Assembly: GCF_010093815.1 (NCBI RefSeq)
Contig: NW_022985557.1
Location: 806,001-870,000, forward strand
Reading direction: 5' to 3'
DNA length: 64,000 nt
Source: Pseudovirgaria hyperparasitica
Lineage: Eukaryota > Ascomycota > Dothideomycetes > Acrospermales > Acrospermaceae
Positions 26,044 to 52,779 of this stretch are shown here, in pieces. Numbering within the stretch: position 1 is the first letter of the stretch; the number at the start of each line of letters is the position of its first letter. The notes under the pieces are model-generated. The model saw only the letters and a program-made list of their open reading frames with translations. It was not told the origin of the DNA and did no database searches. A program made the translations under genes and the position numbers.

Positions 26044-26520
26044 CTTCGTGAGTTTGATGTGGCTTGATAGTTTCTCGAAAGTCGAGGGTAACTTACTCTG
26101 TTATTGACGCCTCACTGAACTAGTGGATTCACTCCTATGAGCTCTGATGCTCCAAACAGACGGTCTTCGAAATGAAGTCGGGACGGGTTTCGCAGAATAT
26201 TCGGTAGATTTAACCTCATATGGATAAAGCTGGCCGCCACTGGAGGCGGGATTCACCTTTAAGGCTGGTTCAGCACCGAAGAAACGCCGCATCCATCGAC
26301 CCATCCTTCGCCTCCACTTTCTCCAGGTTCTCTCCACATCAAGCTTAATTTGATATGCCGCATTCCTGGGGTATAAGGTTATCATGGATCGCCATCGAGG
26401 AATCATTTCCTCCGGCATCTTCTTCTCCTTCAGATTCCTCTTTCCCGACAGCCTTTCATCACATTTCTCCATTCACTCCTGATATTGGTCATCTGAAGTT
26501 CCAATCATTCATCTCTAGCC
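26044..26520. promoter_or_regulatory. Divergent promoter of GH32 and sugar transporter
   Basis: 477 bp lie between the two start codons, so both genes can be controlled by one set of operators. The region includes several CGG triplets (for example CGGGACGGG near 26188-26196) that a Zn2Cys6 protein could use, but no classical CGG-N8-CGG pair was found by eye. It also contains a 123-codon open frame. Confidence 0.55.
26101..26472 (-). CDS. Short Arg/Trp-rich ORF in the GH32 leader
   Basis: A 123-codon minus-strand frame fills most of the divergent promoter, in the same direction as GH32 and ending just upstream of the putative leader intron. The product would be strongly basic, with a central amphipathic patch (RTWRKWRRRMGRWMRRFFG) and no signal peptide. 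It may be an independent small gene, an upstream ORF in a long GH32 leader, or a chance frame. I know no family for it. Its stop codon, and a further stop in the frame leading to the GH32 ATG, argue against it being an N-terminal extension of GH32. Confidence 0.3.
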   Translation of the reverse strand: MEKCDERLSGKRNLKEKKMPEEMIPRWRSMITLYPRNAAYQIKLDVERTWRKWRRRMGRWMRRFFGAEPALKVNPASSGGQLYPYEVKSTEYSAKPVPTSFRRPSVWSIRAHRSESTSSVRRQ

Positions 26521-28185
26521 ATGGATCATAAAGAACTAAGAACGACGCCCGAATCAGTGGACAAATCGGAAGTTGTCTACATTGAAACTGAGTCAATGTC
26601 CTCGAGCAATTTTGATTCTCAGGACTTATCCATCAAAGATCAGTACCGACGACTTGGCAGAGCCATCAAAGCCGATAGTCGATTCTGTTGGTGGACAGGC
26701 TACTGTCTACTTTTGGTTTTTGGATGGGGCTATGACAATGGTCTATCTGGCGTAGCTATCGCATTTCCGGCATTCCGAGAGAGTTATGGTCATTACTATC
26801 CCGAAGCAACGACTTCTGGAGAAGAGTATGTCATTCCAGCCCTCTGGCAATCTCTCTGGAATGCAGCATCGACTATTGGACAGGTCTTTGGTGGATACGC
26901 AGCAGGCCAATTCGCAGATACATTCGGACGCAAAGCCATTCTGTACCTTGCTGTTTTCCTCTCTTTGGCATCCAGCTTCGCCTTGGTGTTTGCACCGAAT
27001 CTCCCAATTCTCTTCGTGTCGAAGCTGCTTCTTGGCCTTTCCATTGGTCTATCAACCGCAACCCCACCTCTTTACGTGACGGAAAACGCGCCCGCCCATC
27101 TGAGGTCTACTGTGGCGTCACTGACGAACGTCATCATCGTTCTTGGCTTCTTCATGTCGTCGATCACTGGCTTTGGCTCGTCTCATATCCAGGGTGTATG
27201 GTCATACCGCCTGGCCTTCGTTCTAACTTTTCTGATTCCTGGTATCTACCTCATCGGACTGCCATTTTTCCCTGAATCTCCCGTTTGGTATATGAAGAAA
27301 GACCGCGAAGAGGACGCCCGCAAAGCGCTCGTGAAGCTGTATGGTTCAAAAGTCGACATTGAAGGGCGTCTACAAATGATCCGCGACGAGCTGAAGCAGA
27401 ATGAAGCACCAACGGATGGTATCTCTCAGACTAGCTGGAAGGCAATCTTTTCTAGGGAGAACCGTATCCGTACCTTCGTTGCAGTCCTCGGTCTTCAAGT
27501 CCAGAACTTCTCCGGTGGATACTTTGCAAACACGTATCAAACATACTATTTTGGTTTGATTGGGGCCAAGGATCCCTTCCAACTCACAGCCATCTCCTCA
27601 ACCCTCCAGTTTGTGGCCAATTGTGCAGCAGTCGTTGTTGCAGATGTCGTTCCGCGCCGAAAAGGCCTTATCGGAGGTGGCACAATTCTCCTATTCTGGT
27701 CAGTCATCATTGCCGGTACTTCTTTGGCACCAAAAGACAACCATGTCGCAAACGTGGTGAATCTCGCTTTCATGATTACCTGGTCCATGGGATACACTGC
27801 GACAGTTGGATGTTACGGATGGGCGGTTGCCGCCGAGACCTCGTCACAAGCCACGAGACCGAAGACAATCTCATTTGTCCTTGTCTGTCAACAACTCACA
27901 GCGCTTCTACTTTCCAGCGTCTTTCCCTTCTTCATCAATCCTGACCAGCTGAATTGGGGTGGCAAGGTCATGTTCCTTTTTGTAGGCGCTGAGATCTTCA
28001 TCCTTGCTGCACTATTCTGGTTCCAAGGCGAGACCAAAAATCGTACGAATACTGAGATGGATGCACTCTATGCCTCTGGCGTCCCGAAGTGGCGATTCAC
28101 GCAGTATAGAGTAGTTGACAGTCATGTTGAGTTGAAGGAGAAGACCAAGGGGAGTCTGGTTGGCCGGATGCTCCGCAAGGCATAG
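26521..28185 (+). CDS. MFS sugar transporter (sugar porter family, alpha-glucoside type)
   Basis: A single-exon gene of 554 aa with about 12 membrane segments. Sugar-porter signatures are present: GWGYDNGLSG in TM1, the loop 2-3 motif FADTFGRKA (a D-x-x-GRK variant of DRxGRR), and PESPVWYMKK after TM6, a variant of PESPRWL. The overall pattern resembles fungal maltose/alpha-glucoside:H+ symporters (MAL-type permeases) more than hexose facilitators. It should sit in the plasma membrane and import a di- or oligosaccharide. Both neighbouring hydrolases lack signal peptides, which supports uptake of an intact glycoside. Cytosolic N- and C-termini are charged. The exact substrate (sucrose, maltose, isomaltulose, erlose and so on) cannot be deduced. 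Confidence 0.92.
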   Translation: MDHKELRTTPESVDKSEVVYIETESMSSSNFDSQDLSIKDQYRRLGRAIKADSRFCWWTGYCLLLVFGWGYDNGLSGVAIAFPAFRESYGHYYPEATTSGEEYVIPALWQSLWNAASTIGQVFGGYAAGQFADTFGRKAILYLAVFLSLASSFALVFAPNLPILFVSKLLLGLSIGLSTATPPLYVTENAPAHLRSTVASLTNVIIVLGFFMSSITGFGSSHIQGVWSYRLAFVLTFLIPGIYLIGLPFFPESPVWYMKKDREEDARKALVKLYGSKVDIEGRLQMIRDELKQNEAPTDGISQTSWKAIFSRENRIRTFVAVLGLQVQNFSGGYFANTYQTYYFGLIGAKDPFQLTAISSTLQFVANCAAVVVADVVPRRKGLIGGGTILLFWSVIIAGTSLAPKDNHVANVVNLAFMITWSMGYTATVGCYGWAVAAETSSQATRPKTISFVLVCQQLTALLLSSVFPFFINPDQLNWGGKVMFLFVGAEIFILAALFWFQGETKNRTNTEMDALYASGVPKWRFTQYRVVDSHVELKEKTKGSLVGRMLRKA

Positions 28186-29066
28186 AAGAGTGGTATTTGG
28201 TGTCGGTGTATATTCATATCTTATTCAATCGAAATTGTTACAAAATTTCGGATATCTGTGGTCTCTTCTCAATCCTGTGCAGTATCCATAGGTCAACAAA
28301 CGGCCGGGTGAACGATATATAACAGCGAGCCTACGCACCTGGAAGTCCAATTTGTGGCTCCAATAGGACGACGAGGTACTAGACTTTAGCATTCTTGTCC
28401 TCCTGAATGTGCGGCAAGTTCTATCAACCATAGACCTCCATGTTCTCGGAAAAAAGAAGAGTGGGTTTAACCACTTGCTATCTCATTCGCGAAAGTTTCA
28501 CATATAGAATTATATGCAGCATACAGCACCATGTTCCCTTCAGACACGATGATAATCATAAGTTGGTCCATTCCGATTCTAACGTTCATGCCTTCACACT
28601 AGTGTATAGATAGAACTAGAACGACCGCAATCACGGTGAATCGGCTTATATAGAGCTATCCCGACGGGAGAGCTCGTGAACATCTCATGTCGGACCGAAA
28701 ACGCGCGATATAAGCTTTGTAGCTATGCACGAGATCTGAAATCCAGGAGGGTACAACGTGGAAATCGCCCGATGATTTGAGCGGGGAGCGGGGAAGCACT
28801 AAACTCGGCCCTGCTTTCCCCAAGCTGCCTAGTGAATATGTTCGATCGGAGAAATATTCCCAAATAAGCTTCCATCACGACGTAACATGTATTGCAGAAC
28901 CATCGCCCTCCATCCGGGCAGCTTTTCGGAGAAACGATACTTGAGGGGAATGTTGTTGTTAAAGGCTGCACCGCTGGTAGGGCCATTACCCAGAGTCAAT
29001 ATCACAGTTCTTATTTCGCCGATGCCCCAAGAAGACATTATTCACGATCGACAGAGTCCAATCGAA
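28186..29066. promoter_or_regulatory. Upstream region of the GH13 gene
   Basis: 880 nt between two co-directional cluster genes. A TATA-like GATATAAGC lies near 28707, and CGG-containing G-rich elements lie near 28780-28795 and 28914-28931. In-frame ATGs at 28887 and 29022 precede the preferred start at 29067. The region otherwise appears non-coding. Confidence 0.4.
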
Positions 29067-30818
29067 ATGACTTCATCAGCCATCGTAGAAAAAGCATGGT
29101 GGAAAGAAGCTGTCGTCTATCAAATCTACCCAGCCAGCTTCCTCGATAGTAACGACGATGGACTCGGGGACATACCAGGTGTCATCAGTAAAGTTGCATA
29201 TATCAAATCCCTCGGAGTCGATGCGATATGGCTTTCTCCCGTCTATACGTCACCACAGAAGGATATGGGATATGACATATCAGACTATCGGTCGATACAT
29301 GCGCCATATGGAACTGTCGAAGATATGCAGACCCTCATTAATGTCCTGCACGATAACCAGATGAGATTGTTGATGGACCTCGTTGTCAACCACACGAGTG
29401 ATCAGCATGACTGGTTCAAGCAGTCACGCAGTTCCAGAGAGAGTGAGAAACGTGGCTGGTATTTCTGGCGAGATGCGAAGATCGATACAAATGGCAATCG
29501 CAAAGAGCCAAACAACTGGCGATCAATTTTTGGAGGTAGCGCGTGGCATTGGGACGAAACAACCCAGCAATACTACCTTGCCCTATTTCTCCCTTCACAG
29601 CCAGATCTCAACTGGTCAAATCCGGAGATGCGCAGAGCTACATATGATGACATGCGTTTTTGGTTGGACAGGGGCGTTGATGGCTTCAGAATTGACTCAA
29701 TGAACCTCATGTCAAAGCATCCTGATCTCCCAGATGGAAAGGTGGTGAATAATGAGCCTTTTCAAGATGGATCTGAGTTTTTTGCTTCTGGCCCAAAGAT
29801 GCACAACTATATCCGTGAGATGCGCACGGAGGTGTTCGATAACTATGATTGTATGACCGTTGGCGAGCTTGGCTTCACGAAGGATGAGCAATCCGTCAGC
29901 CAATACGTGGCGAAAGATCGCCATGAACTCAATATGGTTTTCACCGGCGATATTGTTGATGTCGACTTTGGCCCCAATGGGAAATACGAGCGCACGATCA
30001 ACAACATTCCGCGAAAGATCCGTGAGATCACTGATCTTTGGCAACAGTCCATGCCCAAGTTCAATGGGTGGAATAGCGTGTACTATTCAAACCACGATAG
30101 TGGTCGACCTCTGACTCGATATGCCTCTGATTCCCCAGAGCATCGAGCAGCAGCTGCGAAGATGCTTGCAATGTACCTCCTATCCCTCGGAGGAACACCT
30201 TTCCTTTTGCAAGGCGATGAAATCGGCATGGCCAATCTTGGCAAAGACTACGGCCCAGATGCATATATAGATGTAGAAGCTAAGAACTACTACATTTCAG
30301 TCCTGAAAAGTCGTGGCGGTAACGAATCAACTATGGACGATGTTTTGAGAGAGATGCAACTCAAGTCGCGAGATCACGGCCGCTTACCTATGCAATGGGA
30401 CAGCTCTGTCAATGCCGGCTTCGCGTCACCAAAAGCACGTCCTTGGATGACTATCAACAAGGATTACACCGAATGGAACGTGGCGAGCCAGATCAATGAT
30501 CCAAACAGTGTATTCTCGTTCTGGAGAACAATGCTGACTCTTCGTAAACAGTACACCGATCTGTTTGTATATGGCTCATACAAGTCAATTCCAGAGTCTG
30601 TGATGGGAGAGGGAGTCATCGGATTTGAGCGTGCAGAACAGGTAGTAGGCGGAAAGAGAGCAGTCGTTTTTGTGAGTTTCTCGGAGCAGAAATATACAAT
30701 ATCGACAGATAAGTACGTGGGCTGGGACGTATTAGTTACGAATCACAGAGCTTCTGTCGACAACTCGTGTATCGAACTTGGACCGTTCGGCGCTCTGTTA
30801 TTGATAGACAGCAAATAG
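29067..30818 (+). CDS. GH13 alpha-glucosidase, intracellular type
   Basis: A single-exon gene. The start at 29067 gives 583 aa (MTSSAIVEKAWWKEAVVYQIYP), the usual length of fungal maltase/isomaltase; ATGs at 29022 or 28887 would add 15 or 60 atypical residues. The (beta/alpha)8 barrel motifs are present: region I DLVVNH (104-109), region II GFRIDSMN with nucleophile Asp210, region III VGELG with acid/base Glu267, and region IV SNHDSGRP with Asp344. These catalytic positions match the yeast IMA1/MAL enzymes within a few residues. Two sites differ from the usual pattern: Ser211 follows the nucleophile (Val in isomaltases, Thr in maltases), and region IV has NHDSG where most have NHDQ. No signal peptide is visible, so it probably hydrolyses imported alpha-glucosides in the cytosol. 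It follows the transporter in the same orientation. Confidence 0.93.
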   Translation: MTSSAIVEKAWWKEAVVYQIYPASFLDSNDDGLGDIPGVISKVAYIKSLGVDAIWLSPVYTSPQKDMGYDISDYRSIHAPYGTVEDMQTLINVLHDNQMRLLMDLVVNHTSDQHDWFKQSRSSRESEKRGWYFWRDAKIDTNGNRKEPNNWRSIFGGSAWHWDETTQQYYLALFLPSQPDLNWSNPEMRRATYDDMRFWLDRGVDGFRIDSMNLMSKHPDLPDGKVVNNEPFQDGSEFFASGPKMHNYIREMRTEVFDNYDCMTVGELGFTKDEQSVSQYVAKDRHELNMVFTGDIVDVDFGPNGKYERTINNIPRKIREITDLWQQSMPKFNGWNSVYYSNHDSGRPLTRYASDSPEHRAAAAKMLAMYLLSLGGTPFLLQGDEIGMANLGKDYGPDAYIDVEAKNYYISVLKSRGGNESTMDDVLREMQLKSRDHGRLPMQWDSSVNAGFASPKARPWMTINKDYTEWNVASQINDPNSVFSFWRTMLTLRKQYTDLFVYGSYKSIPESVMGEGVIGFERAEQVVGGKRAVVFVSFSEQKYTISTDKYVGWDVLVTNHRASVDNSCIELGPFGALLLIDSK

Positions 30819-34844: not shown

Positions 34845-36474
34845 TGTGATATGGAGATGGGAGAGAAGGTAAGATATGAAGAGATTGGTATGTATGCTTC
34901 GTGTATGACTTGGTTGTAGATAGCTGAGCGTTAGACGAGAAGCTCAAGATCTGGTATTTTAGGTAGCTAGCATGTCACAACTCGGCAACGAGAGCTTAAT
35001 TCCGCTTATTTCTAAGATGTGAAACGAACGCACGGAAATGAACAAGTTTGAACTTTTTGCACTGTTTTGTCACTCGCGTATGACTATGTTGAGAACATCC
35101 CTTGCTATAACCAAACACTTATCCATTTCGAGCACTTTGTAGCCTGTATTCTATGCAACTCTATTATCCCAGCGATTCCTATTGAACTAAGCAATTGAGC
35201 ATCTACTTGAATGGTTCGTAGAGCAGCCCCTTGCCCCTAGTACAATGACTTGATAAGCATGCACTGCTTGCAGGCGGACAGTGAGAATAAGGGGCCAACT
35301 TCGGCAAGATCCAAGGTAGTAATCACTCTGATGATGTGGAAAGAATGACTCTGAAGACTAACGGCCTATCGAATAAGACGGTGCTATAGAGGTAGATCTC
35401 TTGCCCTCTGGTCCACGATCGTGACCTGTAGCCTAATACCGAGCTACAACTCTTCAATGTATAAACACATATACACCAAGTGACAATAACAGTATTCTAA
35501 AAATTTAGCCCGTGCTCTTACGTCAAGGGATGGTCGTATTACATGATTCCGGAGCCGAATACGAGGACCTGTTTGCAGTACCAATACAGTCTACAAGAAA
35601 CATCCAACTCTAGGAGAATGCACCCACAGCGATTGGCGTTAAACATAGGCATGAACCAGCATCCACCCTCTGGCCGCACCTCCGCTGGACTCTTAAGGAC
35701 ATTCGCACCTCCTCTTGAAAGATTGTAACTAGCAGCACGTCACACAGGCGGTAACAAGTTAGATAGTGTTAGATGTCGTTGTCTGCAGCGAACTATCCTA
35801 GAGACATCAGAGTTTAACACTTTAATTGCTATGGCAGACGGGATGATGAGAAGATATGTAAATATTGCATCCAAGCAGTGGTACAAGAGCTAGAACCTGA
35901 TGCTCCTTGAAATAATAATACACGCGGAGCTGTACATACATAAAGGCGTCATGATTTACCATGGAGTCGCAGTTTTTGCAATGGTGGAATAGTTTCTCTA
36001 GCTTCGTAGGTACATGAATTTCTCTTCGTGTCATACGAATCTCTTGACTATAAAGTTTGTAAGCACATAATAGATATCTAGCAAGTGATGACACTGTTGC
36101 CTGGCGACTCATCCATCTGACATGGTGTCACAATCTTGCCGGCCATCTACTGTGAGATCTTCTATCCCACCGCCTTCGTGTCCCACCACCTACACCTTAC
36201 ACCCTTACAATAACATCCATCATCGCCTATAATAACATTCATCCCGTTAGTATCGAACCCTTCCACCTAGCCTTGATACCTGTACGATACCATCCCAAGC
36301 AAATATACGCATCATAAAGTCCAGCCGCGTGCCACGAAATGAGATGAAGCGACGAGACAAGGATAAGAAGCTTTCTTAAGACCAGCATCATGCAGACAGA
36401 GTCTACCCGCCTAGACAACACCATCTCAATGTACAGGCCGCGATGGCCGCCAAGCGTCTTAACATAGAGATCCT
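34845..36474. other. Gene-poor region
   Basis: About 1.6 kb, AT-rich in places, with open frames below 100 codons on both strands and no recognisable domain, repeat or RNA gene. Confidence 0.45.
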
Positions 36475-37560
36475 ATGCTCGAGATGTTAGACGGGCGTGC
36501 CGCTCGCATCAAAGCGCTGCTATTAGATTTGGAAAACATGAGTGCTCACACAGTAGCAGGTGCCTTGTACCAATGCGAGGGGTGCCACCTACCAGCCAGA
36601 CTGGGAGCATGTACACGAGGATGTAGTCCTATCCCCAACGTTCAACGACCCACGAACCGAGGCAGAGTAAAACTCCCTGTCCAACTTTCCGAGCTTCACA
36701 TTGATTCTACTCACAAGTAATACAATTCTATCGAGCGATACTACAAGCATTATGAGATCATAACCGCAGCGAAGCACTTTAACAAGCATGATGACGATGC
36801 CACAGCCACGAAGCTCATGCAATCCGCCGAAACCATCCACCGACGCGAGGAGACGCGCGCAAAGAGGTTGAAGAAAGTGGCTAGCATATAATACTGGCCT
36901 TTATCAGGTCTTGAGTTCGAAGAGTGGTATCGCTTCAAGAGTGGTATTGTTTCAGTGGCAGGAAATTCTCGAGAATACGCCGCTCCCCCTATGCATCGTA
37001 TTCTCTAGAAGTGCCGCCAAAAACCACGGCCTCACACATCGACTCTATCATGACCTGATAGCCACACATCCAAAAGCTTCGGTAGAGATTACAGAGAAGG
37101 CAAAAGGGTGAAGCCACCTCGGAACCTGCTTATGGAGCTACGTACACAACTGGTCCAGGAGGACAGGCATGCCATTGAGTCAGCGGACATGGAAAGAGCA
37201 GAGAGACTAAGAGACATGAAAGACACCGGCGAATACGTGGGCACTCCGAAAGAGCAAGAAGCTACCGGAAGACTCTAGCTGAACTCATTTCGGAGCGCGA
37301 GTTCTGGGATATGACAGACAATACAAAATGATCAAAACGCCTTGGCAACCTCCTCGTGAGACTACTTGTAAATGCGATTAAGCAAAATAAGCATGATATC
37401 GAGTCGAAAGAGCTAGACATTGTAAAGTAGCTCAAGGAGTTTATAAAGGTGGGCGAACGGGTCGACACTAGCAAGGGCAAGGAGTAAGCCATTACTAGTG
37501 ATAATGAAGGAGACGAGGATGTCGATTGATAGCAAGAGGACATAATGGATTGATTGAATA
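36475..37560 (+). pseudogene. Decayed coding relic of unknown type
   Basis: A stretch of about 1.1 kb still reads as helical, charged protein in consecutive pieces on the plus strand: an opening MLEMLDGRAARIKALLLDLE, then EIITAAKHFNKHDDDATATK, RREETRAKRLKKVA, LRTQLVQEDRHAIESADMER and KTLAELISEREFWD. The pieces lie in more than one frame and are interrupted many times, so the gene is clearly broken (more than half a dozen breaks). I cannot tell whether it descends from a host gene or a mobile element; no transposase, polymerase or capsid signature and no terminal repeats are visible. Confidence 0.4.
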
Positions 37561-38086
37561 TATATATCACGAGTCGAATTCAATCGCGAAGTATACCAAC
37601 AGCAACTGCGTCTGAATTAGAGCTTATACCATCAACACTTAATAATTAAGTAAAACGCGTTCAGCATCCACTGATTTCTCAAGCTTTGAATTTCCGAAGC
37701 CATACCTTCGCGTAGCATGCCGTGTCGAAAAACTAGAACTCTCCTGTAACTCTATCCAGCCGTTTGTAGTGGTGACGAGAACCCTCTGTTTGCTGCGTAC
37801 TAGAGCATTGCCAGTTGTCCCAACAACGCAACAGGCTGAATTTCGACAAGTCACTCTCAGCACGTCATAGACACGATGTCAAGATCATCCTGTGCGTCAT
37901 CATGGCTACGGTGTAGGCTCTGTGAAGTTATCACTAGAGGATTTGCCAGCACATAGTGGTAATTGTCAGGTAGACACGATACAGTAATCTGAACTATAAG
38001 AAGACTACATTATCATGGCTAAGGATCTATGCAGAACAGATGTGGGTTACTTCTGGATCTGTGCTTGATAGGATCTTATTCTTACA
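37561..38086. other. Intergenic region
   Basis: About 525 nt between the decayed relic and the next gene. A 74-codon minus-strand frame is not convincing. The right end should hold the promoter of the gene at 38087. Confidence 0.4.
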
Positions 38087-38718
38087 ATGACTCGCAAAAA
38101 TCAAAAGGGGCGCAGAGCCCAATCTACGCGTCCGGCTGATGTACGTATCGAACCTTCTCTCCTATCAACATAACCCCATTAATACATCTTCTCCAGCCCG
38201 ACCCACACAGCCAAAGCCCACGAAGAGGTACCCAATCATTCCAAAACAACAGTAGAAGCAGCAGTAAGTCCCAGCTCATCCATCAACACAAAACAAGCCA
38301 ACTCAAACCCCCCCAAGCTCGCCCACCACAAAGCAACCCTCCACATCCACCTTCCAAACCCCCCTCCCCATCGCGCCCTCGCCAAACATCCCCAATCCCC
38401 TCCCCAAAGCCCACCCAACAAGCAGCAGCACACAAGCCACCCCAACCGCACCGCAAGAAAAAGCACCGCCGCAACCGCAAGAACAAACGCCCGAAACCCA
38501 CCCCCAACTACATCCCCTACTTCACCCACCACGAGCCATACCCGCCAGCCACGATGCACCCGCACTGCACATCTCCCCACATGCGCTACCGCCCCTGCGT
38601 TGAATGTGCCTGGCACTGGATGTTGCAGGACTGCATATATGAAGGGCAAGAGATGGGACTATGGGACGACACGATAGTGCATGGACTTGATCGTGCTATA
38701 TTCCGGATGTCACGGTAG
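38087..38718 (+). CDS. Small Pro/Lys-rich protein with C-terminal CHCC module (gene A)
   Basis: Model: exon 1 38087-38140, intron 38141-38196 (56 nt, GTACGT...CTCCAG), exon 2 38197-38718; 191 aa. The second exon stays open for 173 codons yet begins without ATG. The N-terminal two thirds are low-complexity: Ser/Gln/Pro-rich, then a strongly basic patch (HRKKKHRRNRKNKR) that could be a nuclear signal or nucleic-acid contact. The C-terminus is compact and ordered-looking: HPHCTSPHMRYRPCVECAWHW, then LQD and an acidic helix ending in LDRAIFRM. Cys and His follow C-x3-H-x5-C-x2-C, a plausible zinc site. The same module with identical spacing ends the convergent neighbour at 39085-39650. An internal GTAAGT at about 38264 might mark a further optional intron. 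No family is recognised. The minus-strand frame opposite (38236-38649) is a shadow caused by the C-rich bias. Confidence 0.68.
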
Positions 38719-39084
38719 TGTTGGGATGGGTTGGAGCTTGGAAACTTCTATATTGGCAATACGATACGTCTGAAATGGGGTTCTGGGCTGGGTAGAATTG
38801 TGATGTGGTGTGTTTGATATGAGGATTCTGTGATGTCTGAGTGAGTGGCATTGACGTGTACTCTACACCGAAGCAGTGCGTATGCATGTCTAATCCGCAC
38901 TAATCTACATACCTCAGGCATGCACGACGAATAAACACACACACTTCTATAATCAGCATAGAATTGTCTAGCGCCCGTGCTATACTCCCTCCTCCTCACC
39001 ACCCACACACATCCCTTCCGCACCCTTTCAAGAACTCACCTAACACCCTCGCCCCTCACAATCAGTATACATGATATCTATATA
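38719..39084. other. Intergenic gap between convergent genes A and B
   Basis: 366 nt shared by the two 3' flanks. AT-rich in the middle, with no open frame of interest. Confidence 0.45.
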
Positions 39085-39650
39085 CTACATTCCCCCCTCC
39101 ATCCTCCCCAACGCATCCCTTAACCCCCTCCTAACCGTCTCCGCCTCCACCCCAGTCACAAGCGCCAGATCCACCATCCGCTGCAGCCAGAAAAAGTAAA
39201 GACAGTCGCCGCAATGCAGCGTTCTAAAATGTGCTCTTTCGCAGAGCGGGTGTGCGGGGCCCTGCTAGCATATTTAGCTTCGTATCAATAATGAATGAAT
39301 TCTGATGGGAGGGGAAGGGGTGTGCTTACAGTTACCGATCTACCACGCACATCATTCCCAGTGAGGGACACGGGTGTTGACTGCTGAGAAGCAGACAGAG
39401 TATTGGTGGTGGGCGTTTGTGGAGAGGCTTGGGGTAGGCGGGCGTTGCGTGCCTCGATGGCGGCTTGGAGGGCGTTGTCGTGGGTGATGAGGTCTGCGAA
39501 GGGCATGTAGCGGAGTTCTGAGGGGTTTTGTTAGTGGGTGGAGGTGAGGTTGGGGTTATGGGTAGGGTTTTGCTTACGTTCTGCGGTGAGACGGCGGTCT
39601 GGAGAGGGGGTGCGCCATGCGGCGGTCTTGTTGGGAGAGGAGTTGTTCAT
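39085..39650 (-). CDS. Small protein with C-terminal CHCC module (gene B)
   Basis: Minus-strand model: exon 1 39650-39578, intron 39577-39518 (60 nt, GTAAGC...CTCAG, CTAAC branch), exon 2 39517-39330, intron 39329-39265 (65 nt, GTAAGC...GCTAG), exon 3 39264-39085; 146 aa. A tandem acceptor (TAGCAG) would omit one Gln. Exons 1-2 encode a polar N-terminus with a possible helix (MPFADLITHDNALQAAIEAR). Exon 3 encodes the ordered module HPLCERAHFRTLHCGDC, then FFWLQ and a helix ending GLRDALGRM. The Cys/His spacing C-x3-H-x5-C-x2-C, the following LQ pair and the terminal GL..A..RM pattern match gene A. A zinc-binding role is likely; function is unknown. Coding-strand base use goes from C-rich to G-rich along the gene. 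The exons are short, so the model depends on the splice sites, which are all good matches. Confidence 0.7.
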
Positions 39651-41532: not shown

Positions 41533-44500
41533 TCAATCCCCCTCCCACGTCGGCATCCACTCCATCCCCGGATAACTCGCCGCAAACATGACCGGCTCAT
41601 CCTCCTCCTCGCCCTTTGGCACAGCGCTCAGCTCTGCGATGCCTTCTGGTGCGTCGAAGACTTTGCTACTGGCGGCAACAACAGTGCCAGACACACCATT
41701 ACCTGGAGCAGCTGGAGTATGAGCAACAGGTGTAGTACCATCAGCATCAGCATCAGCACCAACACCACCCAGACCACCAGATAGCGCGGGAGAGGAAGTA
41801 TGCGCAGCCAAGCTATCCGCTTGCTGTGCGGTGTGTACGGTGACGCTTGCGTCATTCTCATGCGAATTAGCGGAAGATGTAGTCGTAGGCGAGGAAGTAA
41901 GTGTGTGCACAGGAGGAGGTGGCAGGATCTGTCGTGCCTCGGGGGATGCGCGCGGATTTGTACTCATGTCGACTTGCTGCGCATCTGTGTCCATACGATT
42001 TGTCGTCGGAGGATTGGCAGCAGCAGCAGCAGCATCACGAATATCCGGCACGGCCGGGACGCCGTTCTGCCCTGGGACTATGGCATCAAAGGAGCCGGAC
42101 TCGCGGCTTGGATGTGCGGAATTTGCGGGAGTGGGATCGGTGAGGAATGTTGGGCCGTCTATGTTGTTAGCTACCTCTTCGCGGAGAGGATGGGCTGTGG
42201 GCGGCGGGGGCGGCGGCGCGGATGAAGGGGTGTGTTTGTCGTCGAGCAGAGGTGGCGAGGGAGAATGGTGGTGGTTCGGGGGCAGCGGGAACATTTTGAC
42301 TGATGGGGCGCGTGGGATATGCTCTGTTGACACGGCTGATTGTGGGATTGGGCTGAGTGAGTGTTGGACTTCTCGTGGAAGCACTTCGCGGTAGCCTGGT
42401 AGAGGGGGCTGGTGTGGAGGACGAGAGGGGTGTGGTGAGGGTTGCTGGGCGTGGTGCGAGGGATAGTTTGATTGCCCGTCTGGATGCTGCTGCTGATGCT
42501 GCTGCTGCTGCATGTGTTGCGGGACTTGGTGAGTTGGCTGTTGCTGGTAATGCTCCGGAGACGATGTTTGCCCCTGAAGCAGAGGGTGGCGCGGTGCCGG
42601 GGGAGCATGCATCGTGTTCTGGATCTGGTGGATCGGATGTTGCGGGTGTTGAGCCGGATGCTGAGGCGGCTGCTCGTGCGGAGCCGCGAAGCGGAAACCA
42701 GGCGGCGGCTGTGGTGCTTGATTGTTGTTGGCGAAGAGAAACCCGGGCGGAGGGCCACTGGCTTGAGGATGCATTGGGGGACCTTGCATTTGCTGCGCAG
42801 TCTGCACTGGAGCACCCAGAATCTGGGATGCCTTGGGATGGCTCATCTGCATTCTGTGCTCTTCCTCCTCCTCTACGCCATTCGGTAATGTTATAGCCCA
42901 TGGCCTCTCTTGCTGACCGCCATCTTTCGAGTTTCGCGCGGCCTTGGACTTCTTCGTCTCCCCAAACTTGGCTGCACCTATAGCTGCGCCTACCAAGCCG
43001 CTTCCAAACAGTTTCTTATGAGCCGGCGGTGACGACAAAGGCGACACAAGAGGCGGCGACATCGGTTGCGTCAGTCTGTTATGACGGCCCGGGTCGGGCT
43101 TGACGTGAGCAGCGTATGAATCAGATGAGAACTTCCGGGGTGGCCCTGTGGATGGCCCTCGGAAAGGATCCCGGGGATCGCGGCGCCAGGTCGGGCTTTC
43201 AGTCGACAGAAGTCCCGGTGGTGTAAGAGGCCCATAGGGATTGAGCGGTCGCTGGAAGCCTTGATCGTTGATGTGGCGAAACGACCTGTCATAAGCCGCG
43301 GGCAGTGGCACATCGTCATACTTGGGCTCAGGAGGAGTGATTATCCCTTTATCCATTGGCGAAGGAGTCCTACCATTATGATGCGGCGAAAATGTCTCGA
43401 CAGGCGAGATGCCGGGATGTAGTTGATTCTCATGGATAGGTCCAAGAGTGCTACTAGACTTCACGAAGCTATTCCCTCGAACGGCATTCATCGCCTCGTC
43501 GTCAAGTTCTTCATCTTCCTCGTCGTCCATATCCTCACGTAACAGGTTGCCCTCCCCGTACTTGTCAGATTGACGGGAAGTTCTACCACTCATGCTGTGG
43601 GAGGTATGCGACCTCTCAGGATAAGCCTGCGAAGGCGGGACTTGTCGCACAGCTTGATAGGCAGAGCCGTCATTAGTGGTGTTCCCATTCACCTTGGATT
43701 CTGACTTGAATGCCTTTAGAGCATTAGGTGAATTGTAACTTCCAACGCCGTCCCTTTGCAAGAACTTTTTCATAGAAAATCGATTCTTCTTGTTGCCGCT
43801 GTCGGGATGATTCGATGGAGTCTGGAATGACATTCGGTGTGCAGCCTGTACCGCCGACGAAGAGCTGCCAGCACTGCCATTACTCGGACGCGGTTCGCCA
43901 TGTCCATTCATGGGTGTGATCTCTTGGACAGCAGAAGGCCTGCCGAGCACCTTGAAGACCCCAATAGCCTTGCCCTTGAGCTTAAACCGATCCGCGTCCT
44001 GCGTAAAGAAGGAAAGGCCGTGCGCTCTAGACGGCTCCTTTCCTTTATCCATTCTGTGCCCCTGGGATGCATAGCCCGGCTCCTCGTTCTCTTTCCTAAA
44101 GTTAGGATCTGCCTGCAACTTCAGTTCTAGTGCCTTCTTTGTAGCCTCTCGGTAGCCAGAAAGCTGGTAGGCGACGTGCTCTTGGCTTGGGTCGATTGGC
44201 ACGATCGGAGTGTGTCGTGGTTTTCCTCCTTTCGGCGACGTCGTCGATGGCCCAGGCTGGTAGGCAATATCGGGCTCGATGGGATCGTGTTGTGCTGGTT
44301 CTTCCGCGATTGGAGGGTGTGAAGCACTAGGAGTACGGAAGCCATTCTCCGCGCTATGCTGGCGTTGCGTAGGTTGCCTTTGCACTGGTATATCCTCCTC
44401 TCGAGCGGGCTCCTGAGTTTGGCGAAAGTCATTGTGTTGCGGACCCATCTGCTGATGCACCGCGAGCTGACCAAACGACGACCTTTGCTCCTGCTCGTCT

Positions 44501-47259
44501 GGCTTTAATGTCTTCGGTTCTTGATTCCGATTGATGTTACGTGCCACGAGATCCTCCCTGTCTTGTCGCTCTTTCCTGGTGATTGTGCTTACTCGTTCGA
44601 TTGTCTTGCCCTCGCCATCACGAGGCAGGGTCACAAATGACATGGGACGTGAATCCGCAGAGTCAATCGAGCTTCGCAATTGGCGATCATCCTTGCTAGT
44701 ACGATTAGTCCAAGACGCGAGACTCTGGACCCCTAAACTGTCTTTCGATCTGTGCCGGCCTGTAGTCTTCTGAGTCGTCGCCGAGCTCTGGGACGGAGCA
44801 TGTGATTGCCCGGGTGTTGTCGTCGAGTCGTGGGTGGTTATCGTTGGTGTTCCTTTCGCGTGCGTCTGCCCTTGGTGGATCTGATTTGAAGGAGGCGGCA
44901 CTACTCCGCCATGGTCGCCGTAAAGGTCATCGTCTGACATTAGACTCGCGACGCTCGCGTTGTCTGCATTTTGATTTATCATGAGGTTCTGCTGACTCTT
45001 TAGACCCGGCATTGATGTACCATTCTGTTGCAGAATTGGTTTGTCTCCGGGCTTCATTGTATTTCGGATTGCCGGATGCAATGCCAATGGAACCATCGCA
45101 GCTTCCACGTCACTCTTGTGTCTTTGGATCGAAGATGGCGCCTCGGTATCGTCCCCAATAAGCGTCTCATCATTCTGCGGAGGCGTTGCGAACGATCGTG
45201 TCGGATCAGCACGCTGAGGTGCGCGGGGCGGAGTAGACAGCCGCGGAAGCTCGTCTTTGGCATCATATTTAAACGAGAATGAAGGAGACGGTATCGTTAC
45301 GTCCAAACCCCTAATATTGCTAGTCTGTACCTTCGGTATATGCTGAAAGAACGCGAGTGGCTTGACAGGAATTGGTGTATCTTTAGGCGGAGGAAGTGGA
45401 GGTCGATTCTGCAATCTCGGTGGCTCCGGAGCAGCCACGACGCGTACGGCATACCCTTCGGTGCGGATCGGCTTGGACCCGGACTCAGAAGAACCATTTA
45501 CCACGGCGTTCGACAGCGCTTGAAGTAATGCGCCCTGGCGTCGAGGCGCTTGCGATAGCTGTGCACCGGGAACCGCATCATAGCCATTCAACGGCGAGTC
45601 TCTTCGGACTTCGCGCTTCGTGATCATCGGCGGTCCATTGACAACTGGCGGAGGGGGTGGAGCAAATTCTTGCGCAAGGGACAACGGACTCGGCTTGCGT
45701 GCGTGTTGATCTTCAAATTGAGGTGGGCGATCGAATATTGGCGTCGGGTTCTGCGATGCCTGGACTGTTGGAGTCAAGACAATGTCTCCTGGAAGACTAC
45801 AACTGTCACCGGCGGAGGAATCGTCATCGCTGGCGACCCCGGACTTGCTCGGTTGCTGCGTCGCAAGGGGGATCTGGATATGTGGTGGTTGCGTCGCATT
45901 GCGATCCGTCCTCTGCACGTGCGTGGGCGCATTTGCTTCACCATAATTAGTAGCAGCGCCATTTTCTATATTCACATTGTCGTCCTCAAAAGAGAACCGT
46001 GTCGGGGCTTGAGGAGTTTCATCTTCATCCACTGCCGTCGTGCTTGATCCATCGTGAAGAAAGGTGTCAACCTGCTGGCCGACTGCATCGTCTTCATCTG
46101 GGTCTTGCAGATGTGATTGCCCGCCTAGATTGCTTGCAGTCGCATCGGCAGACGCACCCCGAACAAAGTGCCCTGTCATGTTTCCAGCGTCCGGCGTTGG
46201 CTCATCGTCTTCTTCAGATGAACTATCCACCTCTTCCTCCCGGACGTTCATTTCCTTCTCCAGACCATAGGAATTCTGAAGAGCGATCTGTTCCTGCTCT
46301 CTCTGTCTCTCTGCAAGCAACTGGTCTCGCTCTTGGTTTCTATCCGAGTCAGATATTGGGCTGACTAGAGATGCGCGACGCTGGTCGATGGTGGGAGGTC
46401 TGGTGCCGACTGGGCTTATCTCGCCATCCTTGTTGATCACACGAGCCTGAACACCGGTGCCAATCTCTATCTCGTCGCTCACCGGATCGGAGCCCGAGTC
46501 TATCGAAGACTCGTAGCCATCCACACCATCTTCAATCTCCTTTTTGAATTCCTTCAGTTCGTCGTATATCTCGGGATTCTCGGTGAGCGTTCGATCGGGA
46601 TCCTCCTCAGCGGAGACGTGGTTCGGCTGCTCGTCCGCTGTGGCAGTCATAGTTGCAGGATCGACGCCCTGCACGGCCTGTAGCTGTTCCACACTGACGG
46701 GCAGGCTCGCGTGCCGCATGACACTCCTCAGAATCCTATCCTGAGCACCGTCCGGCAACGGCGGCTCGTCTTCCATGTTCCTCAAGTCGCCCCAAGACCT
46801 CTTATGTATGGACGTCGGCGCGGGAGACGGTAGGACGCCGAGATGTGAATCTACCACGCCATTAGAGTTCGGGGGAGGCGTAGTCGGCGGTTCAGGAAAC
46901 GCAGCGGCGGTGGCAGCAGCAGCAGCGTCAGACGCGTAGGTCGGGTCGACGTACGTCGTCTGGGGCAGGCGACGCGAGCTCCAGGCCTGCGCTCTCGAGA
47001 CGTCTATGCCAGAGCCGCCCAGCCACGAGTGAGGGCGGTGGTGGTGGTGTTCGTTGAACTCGCTATGATCGAGCTCGCTGGCGCGTTCGGTGTTGCGCCG
47101 CAGCAGGAAGATGCTGCTGGGACGCGAGGACGGCTTTGACTTGCGAGCGAACGGGCCTAACGACCAGCTCCGTCTGTGAGATTGCTTTTCCTCGTCATTG
47201 GCGTCGCGCAGGGTTCGCAGGCGGGGGATTGACGCGACCGAGGCGGACCGTGAGTACAT
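41533..47259 (-). CDS. Very long disordered fungal protein, unknown function
   Basis: An open minus-strand frame continues for 2005 codons from 47550. I prefer the ATG at 47259 (MYSRSASVASIPRLR), giving about 1908 aa: the 97 residues before it are unlike the rest and could be leader sequence or hide an intron. The protein is largely disordered: Ser/Pro/Gln-rich with basic patches near the N-terminus (RRSWSLGPFARKSKP), acidic blocks (EEEVDSSSEEDDE, EDMDDEEDEELDDE), several PPxP runs, and a Gln/His-rich tract near 42480-42530 encoded by CTG/CAT repeats. A short conserved-looking C-terminus ends with YPGMEWMPTW. RFSFEDD and repeated R-x-S sites suggest phosphorylation. No globular catalytic domain is apparent, so a scaffold or signalling role is only a guess. 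The next gene upstream on the same strand is also a long disordered protein. Confidence 0.83.
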   Translation of the reverse strand: MYSRSASVASIPRLRTLRDANDEEKQSHRRSWSLGPFARKSKPSSRPSSIFLLRRNTERASELDHSEFNEHHHHRPHSWLGGSGIDVSRAQAWSSRRLPQTTYVDPTYASDAAAAATAAAFPEPPTTPPPNSNGVVDSHLGVLPSPAPTSIHKRSWGDLRNMEDEPPLPDGAQDRILRSVMRHASLPVSVEQLQAVQGVDPATMTATADEQPNHVSAEEDPDRTLTENPEIYDELKEFKKEIEDGVDGYESSIDSGSDPVSDEIEIGTGVQARVINKDGEISPVGTRPPTIDQRRASLVSPISDSDRNQERDQLLAERQREQEQIALQNSYGLEKEMNVREEEVDSSSEEDDEPTPDAGNMTGHFVRGASADATASNLGGQSHLQDPDEDDAVGQQVDTFLHDGSSTTAVDEDETPQAPTRFSFEDDNVNIENGAATNYGEANAPTHVQRTDRNATQPPHIQIPLATQQPSKSGVASDDDSSAGDSCSLPGDIVLTPTVQASQNPTPIFDRPPQFEDQHARKPSPLSLAQEFAPPPPPVVNGPPMITKREVRRDSPLNGYDAVPGAQLSQAPRRQGALLQALSNAVVNGSSESGSKPIRTEGYAVRVVAAPEPPRLQNRPPLPPPKDTPIPVKPLAFFQHIPKVQTSNIRGLDVTIPSPSFSFKYDAKDELPRLSTPPRAPQRADPTRSFATPPQNDETLIGDDTEAPSSIQRHKSDVEAAMVPLALHPAIRNTMKPGDKPILQQNGTSMPGLKSQQNLMINQNADNASVASLMSDDDLYGDHGGVVPPPSNQIHQGQTHAKGTPTITTHDSTTTPGQSHAPSQSSATTQKTTGRHRSKDSLGVQSLASWTNRTSKDDRQLRSSIDSADSRPMSFVTLPRDGEGKTIERVSTITRKERQDREDLVARNINRNQEPKTLKPDEQEQRSSFGQLAVHQQMGPQHNDFRQTQEPAREEDIPVQRQPTQRQHSAENGFRTPSASHPPIAEEPAQHDPIEPDIAYQPGPSTTSPKGGKPRHTPIVPIDPSQEHVAYQLSGYREATKKALELKLQADPNFRKENEEPGYASQGHRMDKGKEPSRAHGLSFFTQDADRFKLKGKAIGVFKVLGRPSAVQEITPMNGHGEPRPSNGSAGSSSSAVQAAHRMSFQTPSNHPDSGNKKNRFSMKKFLQRDGVGSYNSPNALKAFKSESKVNGNTTNDGSAYQAVRQVPPSQAYPERSHTSHSMSGRTSRQSDKYGEGNLLREDMDDEEDEELDDEAMNAVRGNSFVKSSSTLGPIHENQLHPGISPVETFSPHHNGRTPSPMDKGIITPPEPKYDDVPLPAAYDRSFRHINDQGFQRPLNPYGPLTPPGLLSTESPTWRRDPRDPFRGPSTGPPRKFSSDSYAAHVKPDPGRHNRLTQPMSPPLVSPLSSPPAHKKLFGSGLVGAAIGAAKFGETKKSKAARNSKDGGQQERPWAITLPNGVEEEEEHRMQMSHPKASQILGAPVQTAQQMQGPPMHPQASGPPPGFLFANNNQAPQPPPGFRFAAPHEQPPQHPAQHPQHPIHQIQNTMHAPPAPRHPLLQGQTSSPEHYQQQPTHQVPQHMQQQQHQQQHPDGQSNYPSHHAQQPSPHPSRPPHQPPLPGYREVLPREVQHSLSPIPQSAVSTEHIPRAPSVKMFPLPPNHHHSPSPPLLDDKHTPSSAPPPPPPTAHPLREEVANNIDGPTFLTDPTPANSAHPSRESGSFDAIVPGQNGVPAVPDIRDAAAAAANPPTTNRMDTDAQQVDMSTNPRASPEARQILPPPPVHTLTSSPTTTSSANSHENDASVTVHTAQQADSLAAHTSSPALSGGLGGVGADADADGTTPVAHTPAAPGNGVSGTVVAASSKVFDAPEGIAELSAVPKGEEEDEPVMFAASYPGMEWMPTWEGD

Positions 47260-47550
47260 GGACAAATTCGGGGCCCGGGATGAGGAGAATTTGTCAAGAG
47301 TTTGGTATGCGGATCGCGCCGAGGCGTCCTGCGAGTCCACTTCAAGGCATATATGTATGTAAGTAGGGAATGCGGTGTTGGCGTACCAAAGGGAATAAAG
47401 GGAAGAAGTGATAGCAATAATGAACGAGTAATGCGCGATGTAGTGTAGCGGGAGCGAGTCGAGGGTTAATGGTAAATCAGAACTGGAGAGAGATGTCTTG
47501 GAGATGAATGATGGACGGGGCTGAAGTTGGCGAAGGCTTAGACGCTCCAC

Positions 47551-47964
47551 GTTCGAATCTCAGCCAATCGAACAATTCACAACCAGCAAACAATCCCCGG
47601 CCCCGTCTATGGATCCATGCGGCGCGACGGCGACAAACTACTCCACATCTTGTCCTTTAGGCCCTTTAGTGGCGCCAGGGTTACCAAAGAGACGAGGCAT
47701 CCGTGCATAGATGGATATATATATATGTGTGTGTATATATATACATACACCTAAAAACAGTCTTGTCATCATCGCCAATATATGCAGGGGAACATCGTGC
47801 ACCCGCCGATCTGTGTGCTGGCTGTGCTCAATTTATATGTCACAAATCACCCTCATCATTATCACCAGCTTCATCATCAGCCGCCTTGCGCATACGAGAC
47901 AAGTAACAGAGGAACAAGGAGAAACGTCGGAAAGTTGGCATATATGATAGCTGCGGCCATTAAA
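47551..47964. other. Intergenic gap between two long minus-strand genes
   Basis: About 410 nt containing the promoter of the 41.5-47.3 kb gene and an alternating AT/GT microsatellite. Short plus-strand frames here are not convincing. Confidence 0.45.
47713..47752. repeat. (TA)n/(TG)n microsatellite
   Basis: Alternating purine-pyrimidine tract: (TA)n, (TG)n, then (TA)n again, ending in ACATACAC. Such tracts are length-variable and can adopt non-B structures. Confidence 0.8.
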
Positions 47965-50900
47965 TCAGTCCACCACCTTCTCGCCGCCTCCCTTGAGCCG
48001 GCTCTTCCCCTTCGCAAACAGACCCCTGGCACTTGTCGTTGCCTTTCCGCCAAATATACCCGCAGTCTGTAACAGTTCTTTGCCCTTTGCCTGGACCTTC
48101 GCGCCACCAGAAGGACTAGACGTTCCGGTGTGGGCAGCACTCACAGGTGAGCCTGCAGCCACGGCCGGGCTCGATGGCGAGTTGGTTGATGGCTGGTGTG
48201 AGAATGAGGGCTTGCTGGAGGTAGCAACTTGGTTCATCTTGCTGAAAACACTGAGCGACGGCGCATGTCGGTGCCGTGCTGACGAAGGAACCGCTGCTGG
48301 AACATTCGGTGCCCTGATGGCGATGTTCCTGACGTCTGCATGCTCTGGGCGCGCCGCTAGTGTGATCTCCAGCCAGTTACGCAAGCCAGTATCCATGTCT
48401 GCAAATTGCTTGCGAGTTAAGTCGTACTTTTCGGTGCGCTCATGAGCTGACTTCAGAACGAGTATCTCTCTGAAAGGCGGGATGCGCCCTGGATCAGCGA
48501 CTGCTGCGGCAGACGCAGGCGGCCCAGAAAATGATGGCTGCTGAGCTTCCACAGTCGGCTCGATTGGTTCATCTTGCTGAAGACTGGATACCTTTGACAT
48601 TTCCGCACTTGGTCTACCATACGTCGGCTCCTCAATTGCTTCGGGGTTCTCAGTATTCAAAACATGCAGGCCTCTGTTGACGACGGGTCCGGTGGTGTCA
48701 GGCGTGCTCACATCACTTGCAGCAATGTTAGCCGGAGGTGGCGGAAGTGGTGAATTGGTCGAAGTAGGAATCGGAGCGGCCGGGGATGTCTCTGTAGGCA
48801 ATGCGATCGGGGCAGACCCCGAGGGCTTCGGCGCGGGCTTTTCCCACGAGAAGCGTCGATCTAGATAGCCAGGTCCTGTTGAGGCGTCCAGCTCCACGGC
48901 TTTCTCCACTACGGGAGCTTCCACAGTTGTCTCCGGCGAGGTAGGCTTCGATGTGACATTTCTGAATGGATAAGTGTCAGCGCCTCCTGGCCCTCCCCAG
49001 AAAGAGTCGTACTCGGCTGGAAGAACAGAACTATCTCGAGACAATGCAGCCTCGGGAGCAGCCAGTTTTTGGGCCAACTTGGCGGCTTGGGGGCTCTCGG
49101 AGGCGATGGGACTCAGAGTCTGCACAATCTCTTTCCGTAGACGATCGCTTTCTTCATCGTTCGGCGAGTTATCGGTGCTTAGGCGCGGCACGCTGACAGA
49201 CTGTTCGGCAGTCGATATAGGAGGGAGCATGTCAGGGACAGGTGTAGCTTCACGGCTTTTTAGCGGGGGCACTGGCCGAATCTCATTGGAACTTTCACTC
49301 TGGCTCTCATCGTCAATATCCTTCGGCGGAGGTGTTGGTGCAATCGTGGACTCGGTCAAGTTCGACTCGATGCGTTGAGGTCCCAGTGGTCGACTTTGCA
49401 CCTCACCGATATCTCTACTTTTGGGTGTCTCCTCAGAGCTACCGAAGCCTGCGGCTGCTTTGATAGACTCTCCCATGGCGGCACCTGCTGCAGCTAGTGC
49501 AGACATCGCATCGCTTGGGCTTGTGACGTTGCCCTCCGGTGTTTCAGTCCACTTTGGAGATGTCGCTTCCAAGTCGACAGCATTGGCATCATGTTTGTCT
49601 TCCGGCGCATTCTGAAGTTGCTTTTCCGGCTCGCTCGGGGTGGCTAGACCAGGAGTAGACACATATGATTCCCACTGTCCGGGAAGTTTAGGTCGGAAGC
49701 TTTCTTCGCGAGCAGGTGCTGGCCTTGCATCTGTGGAATGCACTGTTGTGTCTTGTTTGGCGCTCTTGTTCGAAGAGACCGACTGTACCGAGTTTCTTCT
49801 CGATTCAGCATCGAACTTCCCAGCCAAGTCGCGAACACGTCCTTTCGATGGTGACTCTGATCTATCACGCGGTATGGCTGGATTTGGTGCAGTGAACTCT
49901 CTGGTCTGCTCAAGGAACGCAGCCTGGGACTCTTTTTCCTGCCCTGCCAGCTTCGCTACGTCTCTTTCGGGGCTGGTGACGATGGCTTGGGCGATGTCTT
50001 CTTCTCGCATAGTATAATCTTTCGTAGGGCTTGGAATCTCCGACGTCGAAGCACCAACGGGACTAGCAACATCTATTTCTGCCGCAGATGGAAAGCGTAA
50101 ATGGGCTGTTGAAGCAATGACCGGAGAGCGGGCAGGGCTATCGGTGGGAGTTGGTGAGACAAGACTCCGCCGCTTGGGATTTGAGCCACCGGATCCGGTG
50201 CGCGAGTGGGTTGCCTGATCAGGTCGAAGTGGTGCTTGATCCAGTCCATGAAGCGTCGCAGATGCACGCCTTGACGCATTTGGACTTTCCTCTGCGATCA
50301 CAGGTGTCGCCATGTCTTTTGCCTCTGCAACTCTCGCACGACTTGCTGCTGCTGCGGAGCTGGGAACCCGACTCATGATTGGACTGATACCACTCGTACT
50401 GTCTGTGTTGCTGCGCGATACGCTCGACCCAGTCTCTGAAGTCGACCCCGGTTGACGGGACACGGGTGTTGGTGGGACAGAATTGTCATCCTTGCGCGTG
50501 AATGCCTGGTCGACCACACCTTTGATCTCCGACGATGTATTGTTACTAGACGACGCAGGCTGTTTCCGGGAAAGCTGTCTCTGAACAGGTGGGGTAGCCG
50601 GGCCTGGAGAATATCCTGCTTGTGACCAGAAGTCATCGCCAAATGACGTACTGGAGAACTCTGGCAACGCTGGCGAGTTACTAAACCGCTTGGCCGGCGT
50701 AGTTGTTGAAGTCGCTGGTGGAGCCTGGATTTGTGGAGCTCCACTGGTCGCAGGAGGTTGTGCAATGTTTTCGCTCTTCCCTTCGGCGACCGACTCTAGT
50801 GGTCGCGCGCTTCGACTACTATCTTCAGCCGGCCGGCTGCTGAGAGAATCGACACTCGGGCGGCTAGATTCCATTGAAGCACGCTCCTTTTCTCTCGCTT

Positions 50901-51806
50901 CTGCTATCCTCTTGTATATATCTGCAGGGCGGATGAGGTTCGGTGTTCCGCTGGACTCACTGCCTGTACGTTGTTTCAGTGCCGTAGGCGTCGCGTCCAA
51001 TGAACCCAGCAGGTCTGAAGGAGCATCATCTTGGCCAAGACTGCTCTTCCGTGGCGGAAATTTCGAGACTGGCGATTCTCCGGGGCCGACAGAGGGCCGT
51101 GTCTGTAGGGGCTGTGGCATGGCGGATGGGTTGTAATCTTGTCTCCGTTGAGGCTCCATATTCGCCGACGGCGTCTCGGAGATGACGGAGTGGCTCCAGC
51201 TTGCGGCGCTCGATTGGCGACTGGCAGCCGGCTGTGATGGATAGCTTTGTTGCTGGCCACTCCGAGTATACTGCTGCTGAGAAGCAGGACCCGAAGCAGA
51301 AGCCATGGAGGCTGGACTCTGCATCAAGCTCTCTTCGTGGCGCAAGTTGTTTGCAGGTCCGCTGGTATCGATGCGATGTTGAGGGGGATGTGGTCCAGAG
51401 AATGCGCGCCTCTCGTCGCCGGTGTCGAAGGAATTCTTTCGTCCCATTGCCTGCGAGGGGGCAGATCGAGGATCCGTGAAGTTTCTCGCAGCATTCGATG
51501 GCATCTGCTGCTGCTGAGGCACAGGAGGAGGTGCCGCACTAGCACCATACTCGTCCTGCTCGTCATATTCGCCCCAATCGTCACCATCATACGAGAAGGA
51601 CTTTGCTTCCACCCATTTCTTTGTCTTTGCGCGGTTCACATTTGTGGAAAAGGAGGGTGGAGGGCCGCCAGGAGGACCTTGTTGTCGGCGATCACTGAAC
51701 GTATTCGTGTCAGCTATAGCCCTAACTAATAATAACAGTCGTAGAGATGCTGATCAACTTACAGAGGTGAGCGATGATCTTGCGCAAACTGCCATGGACG
51801 CGACAT
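47965..51806 (-). CDS. Long disordered fungal protein with conserved termini
   Basis: Minus-strand model: exon 1 51806-51763 (MSRPWQFAQDHRSP), intron 51762-51695 (68 nt, GTAAGT...TTCAG, with GCTGAC about 16 nt before the acceptor), exon 2 51694-47965; 1257 aa. The N-terminus (NRAKTKKWVEAKSFSYDGDD, then WGEYDEQDEYG) looks conserved and acidic-aromatic. The long middle is Ser/Pro-rich and disordered, with many S-P and R-x-x-S sites. Near the C-terminus an ordered helical segment appears (FREILVLKS, HERTEKYDLTRKQF, DTGLRNWLEIT), followed by a basic Gly/Lys amphipathic tail (KGKELLQTAGIFGGKAT, then RGLFAKGKSRLKGGG) that could contact membranes. I recall proteins of this layout in many filamentous ascomycetes but know no established function. 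The tiny first exon is supported by strong splice sites. Confidence 0.85.
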
Positions 51807-52779
51807 ATTTCTTGTCGCAATGCTCAATAGGACAGGTCGTCAGTATGCAGCTCCGGGCTATTCATAGAATGCAGGCTTAACAATACGACAGCAGTGTGGA
51901 CGGAGGTCTGTCTGACAGACCAGGAGACAACGAACGGACAAAGGATATTAGATATTACGTGTAGGAAGCAGCCGAAGCAGCGTGATGTCGGTGTTGATGC
52001 AAAGGGAGAGAGAGTGAAATGAGTGAAAGATGCTGTGGAGTTGGAAGTTGGAGTGTTAAGCGTCAACCGCTAACCATAAAGCACTGAGTCGAAACAACAG
52101 AGTGACATATGACGCACTGCTTCAAGCCACGAAATGTGCTTTGCTGCTTGGTAACAGGGACTGCAGCTAGAACATGATACACAAAGTCCTCATTCCCATC
52201 ATTAGACTTCTCGATATCCCTCTGATTCGTCTGTTGTGTCTAATTCTGTTGCGCTGACGATACGTGAGAGACGAATGGCTGCGTCGTCACCTCTGTGTGG
52301 CTGTGCGCGTAGAGATTGGATGCGCTCAGGGGTCTTTGCTGAATGCAAAATGGGTCAGAAAGCTTGATGTCTCGACAAGAGTAATCTTGCCGCATAATTA
52401 TGCCAAGATATAACACTGCATGCAGCCACCCCTCTTCTGCTCTTACCACGACTCCTGAACTGTCGTGTATCAGCATCACAACACACTACTGGTCTGCATC
52501 TCACTTCCATCACGAACGCGCAGACGATCGAGTCGTCCAACATCTTTGTTCGCGAGATTTTCGCATTCTACACTTCCTGAACAGACGCTCCTTTTGCCTC
52601 GCCCTTCTCTCCACATTTCCGCAACGGCTGGCCCAGACACAAGAACGCCACGGACCCGTTGAAACTCCGACTCCCAAAACCTCCACCCTCCACCTATCCT
52701 CTCTCCCAACCGCAAACTGTACATATACATATACCATACCCTCACCTCACCCACAACCCACTGTCCACAACCCACAACA
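51807..52779. other. Divergent intergenic region
   Basis: About 970 nt serving as promoter for the long minus-strand gene and for SED5. The SED5 leader (52600-52779) is C-rich. A long minus-strand frame overlapping SED5 extends into it but is an antisense shadow. Confidence 0.5.

Follow-up and report, generated by a model that had tools for sequence, protein, structure and literature searches.

The Pfam family zf-CHCC is NDUFS6-like; its ligands follow the same order as those of the module described below, with wider spacing. The CHCC site of tankyrase has the spacing C-x2-H-x4-C-x2-C, which is one residue shorter in two loops than in that module. According to passages of two reports, this zinc site stabilizes the tankyrase domain in which it lies (PMC12940019; PMC3868897). 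In excerpts of a third report, the bacterial ZAS anti-sigma factors RsiW and RsrA are described as having a zinc site of CHCC type within a helical domain, mostly of four helices (PMC5358783). The same excerpts give the ligands of RsiW as C3, H30, C34, and C37, and state that RsrA releases SigR on oxidation (PMC5358783).

The locus analyzed here lies in a window of 64 kb (G000:C9:806001-870000), the whole stretch of DNA under study, and consists of two convergent genes, A and B. Their proteins share a C-terminal module, HPxC-x3-H-x-R-x3-C-x2-C, followed by LQ and then by GLxxAxxRM. This module differs from each of the described systems. The tankyrase site sits within the PARP catalytic domain, whereas the full A and B proteins have no Pfam match above the cut-off. 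The ZAS pattern combines H-x3-C-x2-C with a distant first Cys, unlike the C-x3-H-x5-C-x2-C of the module; nor do the ZAS profile and fold fit, with no Pfam or NCBIfam match up to E = 10 and a best Foldseek E of 3.9. By the tests run, the module is a member of neither the tankyrase CHCC nor the ZAS group, and the zf-CHCC profile was matched by neither the A nor the B module up to E = 10. The features of the locus are as follows.

38087-38718, + strand: gene A, two exons and one intron, 191 aa, convergent with gene B.
38087..38140, + strand: gene A exon 1, with the start ATG in the context ACAATGAC.
38141..38196, + strand: predicted gene A intron, 56 nt, GTACGT...CAG; retention leads to a stop.
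38197..38718, + strand: gene A exon 2, with a Pro-rich polybasic linker (putative coding), the module, and the stop.
38554..38556, + strand: in-frame ATG directly 5' of the A module, a possible alternative start for a 54-aa protein consisting of the module only.
38557..38709, + strand: gene A module, 51 aligned residues, HPHC...FRM (G000:C9:844557-844709, matched by an A/B chimeric query).
39650-39085, - strand: gene B, three exons and two introns, 146 aa, convergent with gene A.
39578..39650, - strand: gene B exon 1, with the start ATG in the context CACAATGAA.
39518..39577, - strand: predicted gene B intron 1, 60 nt, GTAAGC...CAG, with CTAAC and an in-frame stop inside.
39330..39517, - strand: gene B exon 2, from the splice-site model.
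39265..39329, - strand: predicted gene B intron 2, 65 nt, GTAAGC...TAG.
39085..39264, - strand: gene B exon 3, with the module (59 residues) and the stop.
39100..39252, - strand: gene B module, 51 aligned residues, HPLC...GRM (G000:C9:845100-845252, matched by an A/B chimeric query).

Both gene models of the initial annotation, with junctions at 38140/38197, 39578/39517, and 39330/39264, were reproduced from the sequence. All three introns have GT...AG ends, and when any of them is read unspliced the frame hits a stop. The start contexts of A and B match the fungal start consensus. The stop codons of the two genes are separated by 366 bases; the module forms a separate exon in gene B and the 3' end of a long exon in gene A. 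The same annotation described the long exons as free of internal ATGs, which is wrong: in-frame ATGs occur in exon 2 of gene A (38554, 38581, 38620, 38653, and 38707) and in exons 2 (39506) and 3 (39177, 39102, and 39090) of gene B. At 39258-39266 on the - strand, intron 2 of gene B has a tandem acceptor, TAG then CAG, where a shift of 3 nt could remove one Gln.

The A and B modules give a gap-free alignment of 51 residues. The 16 identities include HP, the Cys-His-Cys-Cys set, R, LQ, G, T, GL, A, and RM. The spacing C-x3-H-x5-C-x2-C is the same in both, as first annotated, and all four CHCC ligands are kept in both copies (n = 2, the only copies found). The BLOSUM62 local score of the pair is 68, against a mean of 22.2 for shuffled B sequences (SD 4.4, maximum 45), and none of 5000 shuffles reaches 68. 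With Cys and His held fixed, shuffles score 32.5 on average (SD 7.2, maximum 75) and 5 of the 5000 reach 68, which indicates that the rest of the module contributes to the likeness. The two modules are also reciprocal best matches among 5457 ORFs of at least 30 aa, drawn from the 64-kb window and 20 adjoining 10-kb stretches (264 kb); the runners-up score 45 (A) and 53 (B).

Occurrences of the signature were counted in six frames over the continuous 264 kb (the window and 100 kb per side), with 25 third-order Markov copies as control. The full signature, HPxC-x3-H-x-R-x3-C-x2-C, occurs twice, in A and B (Markov mean 0.00). Its shorter forms are C-x3-H-x-R-x3-C-x2-C (2 vs. 0.04 in the Markov copies), bare C-x3-H-x5-C-x2-C (4 vs. 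0.64), and HPxC-x3-H (3 vs. 1.44). The two further matches to the bare form lie in ORFs of 41 and 39 aa, in which HP, R, and LQ are missing from the expected positions.

The module proved new to every library searched, namely Pfam, NCBIfam, PHROGs, PDB sequences, and Foldseek, and the earlier statement that it belongs to no named family agrees with the first four of these searches. Neither module matched a Pfam or NCBIfam profile up to E = 10. The full proteins gave nothing above the Pfam cut-off, with two sub-threshold matches for A (E 0.6 and 7.6). PHROGs returned a single match (E 7.2), PDB sequences nothing significant (lowest E 0.42 with the B module as query, 1.6 with the profile), and Foldseek nothing with E below 1 (best E 2.8 and 3.9). 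The weak PDB matches to mitoribosomal mS157/mS132 were set aside: the common part is a portion of the CxxC-helix stretch only. Two collections that are not fungal as such, viral_contigs and genome_contigs, yielded 16 and 117 pattern matches, respectively, none of them confirmed. A literature search did not find the Cys/His spacing as a written motif, a weak indication at best, since motif notation varies between papers.

The genome itself (35,028,730 bases, 59 contigs), which probably belongs to a filamentous fungus given its short GT-AG introns and a fungal transcription factor domain encoded near the pair, was searched with protein queries consisting of the A module, the B module, full B, the B core, the A core, and two A/B chimeras. 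No third copy of the module was found in these 35 Mb by protein searches, which returned A, B, and six other places only; such a search scores only the best candidates and may miss remote copies, and the copy number is at least two. None of the six places was retained. Four lie opposite genes that match Pfam: the C24 place (E 0.0455) is on the opposite strand to a PhoD_2 gene, the C7 place (E 0.00231) is opposite an amidase gene and has an in-frame stop, with the His and CxxC out of place, and those at C4:49723 and on C2 are opposite a hydantoinase (Hydantoinase_A) gene and an NPR3 gene. The places on C13 and at C4:153821 match only residues 10-75 and 4-91 of B, before the module, and have no Pfam match.

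With the A module as query of the whole genome, B was not among the matches listed. The B-module query found A at E = 0.135, below the chance place at 0.0455 (opposite the PhoD-type phosphatase gene); the weight of the argument for homology is accordingly carried by adjacency and the pairwise tests. Taken together, these make a strong case, and the homology of the two modules is, as far as sequence goes, well supported. At the DNA level, the modules agree at 24 of 50 first, 24 of 50 second, and 18 of 50 third codon positions, which points to an old split under protein constraint and not to a recent local copy. Adjacency fits the local duplication first proposed, but the duplication would be old. 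On the best reading of the sequences, genes A and B would be old paralogues that carry diverged copies of one module of about 52 residues.

Structure prediction with AlphaFold2 used one (A) or two (B) input sequences and gave metal-free models. For the B module, with that of A as the only other row, helices are predicted at residues 6-9, 18-36, and 41-57 (mean pLDDT 78.7, pTM 0.56); the two long helices follow the Cys/His loop, with block pLDDT means of 94 and 92 for residues 31-50. The single-sequence model of A has a mean pLDDT of 60.1 and a pTM of 0.30 over its 109 residues; in the equivalent stretch it places helices at 71-88 and 94-108, with block pLDDT values of 69-78. In both modules, helix 1 is aromatic and hydrophobic and only weakly amphipathic, with moments of 0.24 and 0.20; those of helix 2 are 0.51 and 0.60. 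The cysteines are concentrated in the motif, which contains all three of those in B and three of the four in A, and none occurs in residues 1-135 of A or 1-87 of B. Given this confinement and the order and spacing of the ligands, the module likely binds metal. Of the shared metal-binding domain proposed in the initial annotation, the shared module is thus borne out by signature and alignment, and metal binding stands as likely.

We consider that the most likely mechanism, at roughly an even chance, is a structural zinc site that caps a hairpin of two helices, with the hairpin serving protein-protein contact. The C-x3-H-x5-C-x2-C set would hold one structural zinc ion, the CxxC pair would sit at the start of helix 1, and the two predicted helices would form the hairpin. 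A contact surface is suggested by the aromatic helix 1 and the amphipathic helix 2, which together could offer a protein-protein surface for self-pairing, for A-B pairing, or for docking to some other partner. The N-terminal parts, which differ between A and B, may then place each protein. The protein of gene A has a pI of 11.0, is Pro-rich, and contains the polybasic run RKKKHRRNRKNKR; that of gene B has a pI of 9.1 and a shorter, almost lysine-free N-terminal segment.

The Pro-rich, strongly basic tail of A and its pI suggest the nucleus or nucleic acid for this protein. The module could be a nucleic-acid-binding zinc finger, in which DNA or RNA is contacted by the CHCC loop together with basic residues, and bound more tightly through the polybasic tail of A. 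The high pI of both proteins, the polybasic run, and the Arg residues conserved in both H-x-R and the terminal RM are in keeping with such a role. However, helix 1 is not basic in either protein, and none of the known nucleic-acid-binding fingers in Pfam was matched; we regard this explanation as unlikely.

A second alternative concerns coding status: A and/or B may be unexpressed or decaying, or A may be only the 54-aa module protein started at the ATG at 38554, the Pro-rich part being non-coding C-rich DNA. The in-frame ATG itself is consistent with the short form, as is the linker, which lies on a C-rich strand without stops in frames 0 and 1 and gives near-equal scores in the two frames (-0.579 and -0.597); the N-terminal part of the gene A model is weakly supported. 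Codon-usage and periodicity tests did not mark the A and B frames as coding, and exon 3 of gene B scored lower in its own frame than in other frames, but these tests are uninformative here, since on synonymous codons the control genes failed as well. Both modules are intact, however, with the same signature despite diverged DNA, and the start and splice contexts look canonical. Silence, decay, or a short A is therefore improbable in our estimate.

The Cys/His site could also be a redox switch of the kind reported for RsrA, in which oxidation leads to zinc release and a disulfide and thereby alters partner binding. The parallel is with RsrA and RsiW, in which CHCC also occurs in a helical domain and, in the excerpts cited, oxidation frees SigR from RsrA (PMC5358783). 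However, the ligand spacing of RsiW (C3, H30, C34, C37) differs, and its CHCC site is reported in those excerpts not to be such a sensor (PMC5358783). A and B also have no family match in Pfam or NCBIfam, and a switch of this kind seems to us decidedly doubtful. Chance likeness, to which the genome-wide E of 0.135 for B against A (no better than known chance hits) might point, is very improbable, as the signature occurs in none of the 25 Markov copies, no shuffle in 5000 reaches the observed score, and the two copies adjoin.

To the left of gene A, 36300-38000 is gene-poor, with short open frames only. A transposon beside the gene pair was considered for this region and rejected: it matches only itself in the genome and, with no other match above threshold, is not a recent repeat. 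Further left, 21536-30815 holds, side by side, a Fungal_trans regulator (-), a GH32 enzyme (-), a sugar transporter (+), and an alpha-amylase family enzyme (+), likely a sucrose/starch-use gene group. On the other side, two neighboring long open frames on the - strand (41536-47559 and 47968-51753; 2008 and 1262 codons) are of low complexity and have no Pfam match; their protein is probably disordered. A 478-codon frame at 52479-53912 (-) lies opposite a syntaxin-5-like SNARE gene (52663-53913, +) and, having no Pfam match, is probably an antisense shadow.

By analogy, the module of A and B may work like the tankyrase or ZAS CHCC sites. Small lineage-restricted genes are common in fungi, and one speculative extension of the zinc-capped hairpin, which we think improbable as a whole, is an undescribed fungal zinc-hairpin domain: a lineage-restricted family whose convergent pair is kept, with an A-B heterodimer formed through the modules, the arm of A being basic and nuclear and that of B of another kind. 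If real, this compact Cys/His module, absent from the searched libraries, would join the small structural zinc domains. It would also offer a clear example of linked proteins, two in number, with only one module in common, and would allow a test of whether linked paralogues keep a module for pairing.
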